Below are positions 31,278 to 33,977 of a stretch of DNA of 33,977 nucleotides, in pieces. The stretch is from Bdellovibrionota bacterium (lineage in GTDB: Bacteria; Bdellovibrionota; Bdellovibrionia; Bdellovibrionales; JAEYZS01). Numbering within the stretch: the stretch's first letter is position 1; each line of letters opens with the position of its first letter. The stretch covers positions 1-33,977 of the forward strand of contig CAUJDY010000109.1 in NCBI GenBank assembly GCA_963169805.1, read 5' to 3'. The translations under genes and the position numbers were made by a program. The notes under the pieces were generated by a model. The model made no database searches. It had not been told where the DNA came from and saw only the letters and a list, made by a program, of their open reading frames with translations.

Positions 31278-31820
31278 ATGAAGACATATTTGATTTTAAG
31301 CATATTCTTTATAAGTTGCTTAAGTGTTGCGGCGGTTCCGACTCCGCAAACACAGTTAGATATATATGCTGTGTTACCTGTAAGCCCCGAGCCTGTAGTA
31401 ACACCTGAATCTATCGCGAAGTTTATCCCTACAGATTCATCCTCTTATACAGATGAAGAAAAATGGATTCGACAAGTTGGCAAAAGAACCATTAAAGCAA
31501 TTACTAAAAGCGACTTTGTTAAAAAATCATCGCTTGGTAAAACAGCTGATTCTATCAAAGAATCAACATCTACAGAAATAAAATCCTCAACACCGACTCA
31601 CTCCAACGAAATTCAACACAAGGTCAAATTCTCTTTTGATCCTTACAATGCAGAGGCCCGCATGAGGTACTCAGGATTCTTTAACTGCAGCGCCTTTTAT
31701 GATGCCTTTGATGGTGATCTCAAAGTAGAACTGTCAGAGCAAATTGATGATACTTCAATTAAAATTCAGCACTCTACGAGCGAACAAAACTCTACACTTC
31801 TTTTAGGATGGACTTGGTAA
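31278..31820 (+). CDS. Exported protein of unknown function
   Basis: Signal peptide MKTYLILSIFFISCLSVAAVP; C-terminal SEQNSTLLLGWTW resembling an outer-membrane strand ending in an aromatic residue. Confidence 0.65.
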   Translation: MKTYLILSIFFISCLSVAAVPTPQTQLDIYAVLPVSPEPVVTPESIAKFIPTDSSSYTDEEKWIRQVGKRTIKAITKSDFVKKSSLGKTADSIKESTSTEIKSSTPTHSNEIQHKVKFSFDPYNAEARMRYSGFFNCSAFYDAFDGDLKVELSEQIDDTSIKIQHSTSEQNSTLLLGWTW

Positions 31821-31843: not shown

Positions 31844-32542
31844 GTGAAACAGTTTTCTATCTATCTCATTTTAGTTTTATTCAAATTATCTTATGCAGAC
31901 GGAGCAAAAGTTTTTAATTTTAGTAGCATTGATTCCAATAAACCTTTTGTACTATTTGTACTTGGGTTTGGTGAATTTCCACAAGAAACTATAGATGCAA
32001 AACTTGTAGCAGATAATTTCTATCTAAGCCCTTATCATATGTACTTTGATTTCCGTGTAGTTCCACTGCTGTCTCCAAAAAGTGATTATGCAAGCGTCAT
32101 GCGTGCAACTAAAGATCGCGTGATTGCAATATCTCAAGAAATAAACAACCTACCACACAAAAAAATTATTCTTGCAGGTCACTCCTCTGGAAGCTTGATG
32201 GCCATTGAAATATCGAAGCGGCTCAAGAACAAAGATATTACTCTTGTGAGTATCGATGGATTTGCACCAACAAATCTTGCACCTGCTCATATTCCTCATA
32301 CATGTTGGACGGCAACCCACGGCAAGGTTCGCTCTTTAAATTACTCATCTGCTATGACTTGCAAAAATATTTATATTTACAAAGACACAAAATGTACAAG
32401 TTCAATGTGTCTGCACTTTGAACTTATCAATCTCTCAAGCGCAGCACTCAACATCACATCAAAGAACTTTAAACAGCTGGGTTATACAAATCTTCAACTC
32501 AACTTGATTTGGCTCAATCCTTTTATGCAATGGACTCAATAA
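31844..32542 (+). CDS. Exported alpha/beta hydrolase-like protein
   Basis: Signal-like N-terminus; nucleophile elbow KKIILAGHSSGSLMAIEIS. Confidence 0.6.
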   Translation: MKQFSIYLILVLFKLSYADGAKVFNFSSIDSNKPFVLFVLGFGEFPQETIDAKLVADNFYLSPYHMYFDFRVVPLLSPKSDYASVMRATKDRVIAISQEINNLPHKKIILAGHSSGSLMAIEISKRLKNKDITLVSIDGFAPTNLAPAHIPHTCWTATHGKVRSLNYSSAMTCKNIYIYKDTKCTSSMCLHFELINLSSAALNITSKNFKQLGYTNLQLNLIWLNPFMQWTQ

Positions 32543-33704
32543 CGATCGCAATTCCCTGACCACCGCCAATACATGCGCTTCCTACTGCGTATTTTTGCTT
32601 GCGACGCTTGAGTTCGTACATGAGTAAATTCATAATACGAGTTCCAGAAGCTCCCAGCGGATGTCCGACCGCTATTGCTCCACCGTTTACATTTGTGATT
32701 TCAGAATTGAGCTTTAACTCTTTTTCGACAGCTAAATATTGAGCGGAAAACGCCTCGTTGACTTCTACAAGAGACATATCATTTAGAGTAAGCCCTGCTT
32801 TTTGGAGAGATTTCTGAATTGCGTAAACCGGACCTATCCCCATAATCTTTGGATCACAACCAACTGAAGCATATGAAATTATTTTTGCCAGTGGCTTTAG
32901 ATTACGTTTTTTTGCTTCATCTTCGGACATCAAAATACTTGCAGCTGCGCCATCGACAATACCAGAGGCATTTCCTGCTGTGACCACGCCCTCTTTTTTG
33001 AATAGAGGTTTAAGTTTAGCAATGCTTTCATACGTTGCATCCATTCGTGGGTGCTCATCTTTTTGAACAAGAGTTGAGCCTTTTGAGTTTTTGATTTCAA
33101 CGGGTTTCATCTCGTCAGCAAATTTATTTTCTTCAAAAGCTTTTTTATATCTCTGTTGAGATTTGAAAGCATATTGATCGACTTCTTCCCTGGAGATTTT
33201 ATATTTCTCTGCTAAATTTTCTGCAGTTATAGCCATAGGAATTTGTACGTATTGGTCTGTTAAAGAGGCTGTCATATAATCTTCTATTTCTGAATGTCCC
33301 ATACGATTTCCCCAGCGTGCTCCTCTTAGGACATAAGGTATCTGGGACATTTGCTCGACTCCACCAGCAAGAACAATATTGGCCTCACCAGTTTGAATCA
33401 TTTGAACAGCGTTCACCCAAGATTGAAAACCACTTCCGCACAGACGATTTACGCCCAGGGCTCCTCTATCTTGAGGAATTTCTAGCTTTAAACCTATATG
33501 TCGAGGAAGGTAAATCGCGTCTTTACCACTTTGAACCACATTTCCAAAAACAACATGATCTATATCTTGCGGTTTCAGCTCTGCTTGTTGGAGGGTTGCT
33601 TGAGATGCATACACTCCCAAATCTGTTCCAGAAACATCTTTTAATGAACCGCCAAAAGCTGCAAACGGAGTTCTCTGCCCCGACACAATCACCACATTCT
33701 TCAT
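32523..33704 (-). CDS. Acetyl-CoA C-acetyltransferase (thiolase)
   Basis: NRLCGSGFQSWVNAVQMI, NVNGGAIAVGHPLGASGTRI, GSACIGGGQGIAIVIE; ATG 33704 (MKNVVIVSGQRTPF) with GGAGGA upstream rather than track start 33815. Confidence 0.94.
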   Translation of the reverse strand: MKNVVIVSGQRTPFAAFGGSLKDVSGTDLGVYASQATLQQAELKPQDIDHVVFGNVVQSGKDAIYLPRHIGLKLEIPQDRGALGVNRLCGSGFQSWVNAVQMIQTGEANIVLAGGVEQMSQIPYVLRGARWGNRMGHSEIEDYMTASLTDQYVQIPMAITAENLAEKYKISREEVDQYAFKSQQRYKKAFEENKFADEMKPVEIKNSKGSTLVQKDEHPRMDATYESIAKLKPLFKKEGVVTAGNASGIVDGAAASILMSEDEAKKRNLKPLAKIISYASVGCDPKIMGIGPVYAIQKSLQKAGLTLNDMSLVEVNEAFSAQYLAVEKELKLNSEITNVNGGAIAVGHPLGASGTRIMNLLMYELKRRKQKYAVGSACIGGGQGIAIVIESIA

Positions 33705-33712
33705 ACATCCTC

Positions 33713-33789
33713 CATAGGTACGCCGTATCTTTTGGTTAAGATTTGCGTCAATGACGCAAATCTTAACCAAAAGATACGGCGTACCTATG
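33713..33789. repeat. Perfect palindrome, 38-nt arms with 1-nt centre
   Basis: CATAGGTACGCCGTATCTTTTGGTTAAGATTTGCGTCA a TGACGCAAATCTTAACCAAAAGATACGGCGTACCTATG; checked base by base. Confidence 0.97.
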
Positions 33790-33860
33790 CTAGCTTGATT
33801 CTCTTGGGCTTGCAAACTAAGGTCTATCGTGTCAGAAGCAACTGAAACGAGAGGTTTTCA

Positions 33861-33977
33861 ATGAATATACTTATTGTTGGAAACGGTGGTCGCGAGGCAG
33901 CCATTGCACATTTTCTACGAACAAACGCAAACTCAGCACATACACTTCATGCCTCTCCACATATGCATGCTATTGAA
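33861..33977 (+). CDS. purD: Phosphoribosylamine--glycine ligase, N-terminal fragment
   Basis: ATG 33861 after GAGAGG: MNILIVGNGGREAAIAHFLRTNANSAHTLHASPHMHAIE, open to window end; absent from ORF track. Confidence 0.88.
   Translation, partial: MNILIVGNGGREAAIAHFLRTNANSAHTLHASPHMHAIE

Follow-up and report, generated by a model that had tools for sequence, protein, structure and literature searches.

The 77-nt palindrome between a thiolase gene and purD in this Bdellovibrionota genome is probably a non-autonomous dimer of a mobile repeat, resembling a REPIN or a TIR dimer: two repeat copies, of a kind that also flanks REP-associated tyrosine transposase (RAYT) genes, stand in inverted orientation with their conserved tags inward. 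A miniature mobile element is the likeliest reading; an isolated artefact and a switch dedicated to one gene are both disfavoured.

An exact palindrome at the thiolase ribosome-binding site

The DNA analysed here (33,977 nt; the window) is the whole of contig C109 from a 2.38-Mb genome assembled in 159 contigs. The palindrome is real: a repeat search recovers it at 33713–33789 with zero mismatches, exactly as the initial annotation had described it (77 nt, 38-bp arms, 1-nt centre). The left arm (33713–33750, minus strand) is one repeat copy, with its tag TGACGC running from 33750 to 33745 and its GTACC end towards thiolase, while the right arm (33752–33789, plus strand) is a second copy, with the same tag at 33752–33757 and its GTACC end towards purD. 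The arms are 38 nt each and 100% complementary, and are separated by a single unpaired base at 33751 (A on the plus strand). No other inverted repeat of this kind is found within the window, the runners-up being 74–84% complementary. By our own arithmetic, at a pairing probability of ~0.26 per position, a perfect 38-bp arm is expected by chance ~1e-18 times per 34 kb. The palindrome folds with −44.4 kcal/mol as DNA (z = −18.6, far beyond shuffled sequence) and with −67.4 kcal/mol as RNA of the thiolase strand (z = −16). An Rfam search of the window gave 0 matches at gathering score, and no intrinsic terminator (a GC-rich hairpin followed by a T run) is present at 33600–33977.

The two flanking genes are divergent, as had been proposed. 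The thiolase (acetyl-CoA C-acyltransferase; 32523–33704, minus strand; PF00108/PF02803) adjoins the palindrome and starts with the ATG at 33704–33702. The purD-like gene (33861–33977, plus strand), recognized from its reading frame and from the same neighbour in G002, which shares the family but not the genus of the window's organism, is truncated by the contig end; its start at 33861 reads MNILIVGNGGREAAIAHF. The palindrome had also been said to abut the thiolase Shine–Dalgarno sequence. The adjacency holds, but the contact is more than abutment, since GGAGG (33709–33713, minus strand, read from the sequence) shares base 33713, the last base of the palindrome. On the other side of the gene, window positions 31278–31820 encode a small uncharacterised secreted-type protein; judged by eye, two further genomes (G049 and G009) seem to carry the gene of a similar protein directly beside thiolase, and the neighbourhood around thiolase may be conserved.

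A 38-bp duplex touching the Shine–Dalgarno sequence could, hypothetically, influence translation or invite attack by RNase III, for which long RNA duplexes of this kind are substrates. The position in the leader, the one-base overlap and the strong RNA fold speak for a regulatory RNA hairpin or cruciform controlling thiolase, an option raised at the outset. We nevertheless consider this very unlikely. The element recurs in many unrelated places, in several cases at the end of a gene, and the palindrome is missing from the orthologous locus of the one usable relative, G002; a consensus scan, in itself weak evidence, found no promoter-like site upstream of thiolase. Because the repeat is distributed generally over the genome, a thiolase-specific role is disfavoured, and any effect of the hairpin on thiolase is hypothetical and probably incidental.

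The arms belong to a dispersed repeat family

A genome-wide search with the palindrome region, a check that the initial annotation had called for, retrieved both arms and further places, each of which matches one arm. The palindrome arm is a dispersed repeat of about 34–48 nt with the form TRACGCA-n9-CCAAAAGGTACGGCGTACCTTTTGG. Alignment of the genome copies gives the consensus TRACGCAnnnCTnAACCAAAAGGTACGGCGTACCTTTTGG, in which neither TACGGCGTACC nor the tag T.ACGC varies. The 3' part of this consensus folds as a small hairpin; TRACGCA is conserved 9–10 nt before its stem, and no GTAG is found there. A covariance model of this family (type A) yields 15 clear matches in the genome (E below 1e-7) together with weaker related ones. 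Among the latter we distinguish two sister types, one with GGTGCGGCGCACC and the other (type C) with CGGTGGCGCCGTACC; a sequence model of type C gives 21 genome matches, a few of which are type A copies.

Covariation in the small hairpin is weak. In 13 type A copies, base-pair counting finds three pairs changed on both sides, a number reached in 68 of 500 shuffles, and we make no claim of proven covariation. In the window copy the small hairpin is lost (GGTAC to GATAC, CCTTTTGG to CCTATG), and this copy is therefore possibly a poor RAYT substrate now. A scan of GTDB contigs, a set that may leave out the window's own record, with a strict form of the repeat pattern matched a single other genome, Bdellovibrionaceae SI075_bin85 (G058). 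We also note that contigs C101, C151, C81 and C44 of the window's genome end within or near repeats; the assembly therefore probably breaks at such sites, with some paired copies going uncounted.

RAYT genes are flanked by copies of the repeats

The genome holds nine IS200-like transposase matches. One RAYT gene (C135:4259–4897, 213 aa) is bracketed by inverted copies of the window repeat (36 nt), one on each side, both with their tags facing the gene; the two copies differ at 2 of 34 core sites. Its best NCBIfam match, NF047646 (REP-associated tyrosine transposase), scores 57 bits, below the curated cut-off of 80, and in a single-protein scan its Pfam score of 22.4 falls just below the cut-off of 23. 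An HUH motif (NNHFHML) and a Y...NP motif can be read in the protein sequence. A PDB sequence search with the RAYT gave no match, and no relative of it was found on viral contigs. A second RAYT gene (C84) is flanked by identical 44-nt inverted repeats of type C. Similarly, the RAYT genes on C63, C144 and C85 have other long flanking inverted repeats of 50, 57 and 35 nt, respectively, each locus with its own. The association extends to G058, from the same order, which has about 25 repeat matches and a RAYT gene (C26:18292–18909) that is also flanked by copies. Elsewhere in the window's genome, another perfect palindrome of unrelated sequence (27-nt arms, 3-nt loop; positions 107–163 of a locus on contig C51) stands just before a RAYT-like gene.

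Inverted doublets with closely matching arms

The window palindrome is one of a series. Besides it, the genome contains at least six inverted doublets of the type A and type C families, with perfect or nearly perfect arms of 35–49 nt and loops of 3–10 nt: on C121 (47-nt arms, 8-nt loop), C16 (37 and 3 nt), C19 (46 and 7 nt), C94 (45 and 5 nt), C40 (49 and 10 nt, one mismatch) and C30 (35 and 10 nt, one mismatch). The scan covered the surroundings of repeat matches, and the count is a lower bound. In all seven doublets, across both families, the tags face inward, the orientation seen around the RAYT genes.

This series bears directly on whether the palindrome could be an assembly or library fold-back artefact, as had been suggested. 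It lies 188 bases from the end of one of 159 contigs, and some contigs do end at these repeats. However, its limits closely match those of the repeat, the sequence beyond it runs into purD rather than back into thiolase, the seven doublets occupy separate loci with differing arm sequences and loops, and similar doublets occur in other assemblies (e.g., G002:C9 and G026:C2). An artefact is therefore highly improbable.

Arms are alike within doublets and unlike between them. Over the 34-nt type A core, copies at different loci differ at a mean of 5.7 sites, whereas no differences are found within the window pair or within the C121 pair. Five type C doublets show six within-pair mismatches in total; exchanging right arms among them raises this to a mean of 21.8, and of the 120 possible pairings the true one has the fewest. 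Consequently, the arms of a doublet either arose by copying one from the other or were brought into line by mutual correction, with a shared history that is more recent than the separation of the loci or was corrected after it. More widely spaced copies are less alike: besides the C135 RAYT pair described above, an inverted pair between two divergent reading frames (C125:18030–18192), with cores 71 nt apart, differs at 7 of 34 sites. The C84 RAYT pair is identical over 44 nt, so spacing alone does not decide how alike the arms are.

The same data leave some room for a different order of events, in which a single repeat copy already resided at the site and a template switch copied it in place, the doublet itself never having moved. 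We regard this as possible but doubtful. It involves the same repeat family and overlaps with the hairpin-templated copying that we propose below, differing only in sequence of events. Arms that are identical while loci differ, the palindromic spacer ends that lie outside the repeat in C121 and some other doublets, and the commonness of single repeat copies are all in keeping with it, and template switching is documented for perfect hairpins (PMC8794818). In contrast, copying in place does not readily account for the inward tags of all seven doublets, nor for the inner TGTATTT that C40 and C94 have in common beyond the repeat, as though one whole doublet had been duplicated. The initial annotation's recent duplication by template switching thus fits the matching arms and palindromic spacer ends, but the unit duplicated is a dispersed, RAYT-associated repeat.

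Probable insertion and proposed maintenance of the palindrome

Comparison of the intergenic region, proposed earlier as a check, was possible with one relative. In G002, the thiolase ortholog (74% identity) likewise lies divergently beside purD, and the site is empty: the gap between the genes measures 100 bp and holds no palindrome, compared with 156 bp in the window, or 79 without the palindrome. As the same neighbourhood exists there without it, the palindrome was probably gained by insertion in the window's lineage, a conclusion drawn by parsimony from a single diverged relative. No target-site footprint is readable at the locus, G002 being too diverged.

We therefore favour the following account of the mobile-repeat dimer. 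The mobile unit would be an inverted pair of repeats without a RAYT gene between them. In single-stranded form the doublet would fold into one long hairpin, to be cut and moved by a RAYT, an IS200/IS605-like HUH single-strand transposase; this step is proposed by analogy with REPINs and TIRtrons, and RAYTs are known to work on single-stranded hairpins (PMC8266576). The doublet would then have been placed between thiolase and purD after the split from the G002 lineage. Its perfect arms may have been kept or acquired by hairpin-templated copying, either through template switching at replication, a documented route to making, repairing and keeping perfect hairpin stems (PMC8794818), or through synthesis during transposition. 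The hairpin in the thiolase leader would be a by-product that might or might not tune thiolase expression.

More tentatively, some copying process in this lineage, be it correction on a hairpin template during replication or duplication of the whole hairpin by a RAYT, could actively keep dimers perfectly symmetric, with arms evolving in concert at each locus and perhaps aided by the lack of detectable SbcCD. The SbcD subunit of this hairpin nuclease was not detected in the window's genome. Of 140 genomes searched across the order, 11 have SbcD above the curated cut-off, and all 11 are from one family (f10). Since SbcD goes undetected at this cut-off in most of the order, its absence is at most permissive, and loss of SbcCD as the cause of the palindromes was set aside as non-discriminating. 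Because one genome offers perfect doublets alongside single copies and pairs around RAYT genes, the origin of REP dimers and the lasting perfect symmetry of some of them become directly testable.

Relationship to known RAYT-associated repeats

The initial annotation knew of no REP family with so long an arm, a statement that needs some qualification, since long hairpins built from inverted REP pairs (REPINs) have been published, as have TIR dimers. In a REPIN, an inverted pair of REPs folds into a hairpin, and these elements are associated with RAYTs (Bertels and Rainey 2011, PMC3116915). Here, too, two inverted copies of a genome-dispersed repeat make up one hairpin, and the same repeat flanks RAYT genes (C135; G058:C26). 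However, the arms described here are perfect and enclose a loop of 1–10 nt, whereas a REPIN has two short conserved ends and a longer spacer. In addition, the tag TRACGC stands 9–10 nt from the stem and faces inward; the GTAG-type tetranucleotide at the foot of REP hairpins is absent, and strict membership of the GTAG REPs therefore fails.

In TIRtrons (TIRYTs), long inverted repeats flank a RAYT-like gene and occur elsewhere in the genome as singles and dimers, according to Di Nocera et al. (2013, PMC3733652); the text of that paper does not name Bdellovibrio. Here, likewise, RAYT-like genes lie within long inverted repeats that have no relation to GTAG REPs (36 nt on C135, 44 on C84, 50 on C63 and 57 on C144), and there are additional single copies and dimers. 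The motif GGGGWSAS that TIRtrons share is, however, absent from the window repeat family. In CGTC REPs, the tag sits directly at an 8–9-bp stem with a CCA tail, and no transposase is associated (PMC3733652). Read on the other strand, the present tag (GCGTYA) includes CGTC in its TGACGC variant, but its position 9–10 nt off the stem and the flanking of RAYT genes place the repeat outside this class. The palindrome also recalls MITEs in being short and non-coding and in sharing its terminal inverted repeats with an autonomous relative. Classical MITEs derive from DDE transposons and carry target duplications, of which none is shown for the palindrome.

We place the window repeat among the RAYT-associated repeats, although its tag matches neither published REP tag (GTAG or CGTC). 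The known RAYT-linked repeats are thereby extended by families from a Bdellovibrio-like lineage whose tag lies outside both published classes.
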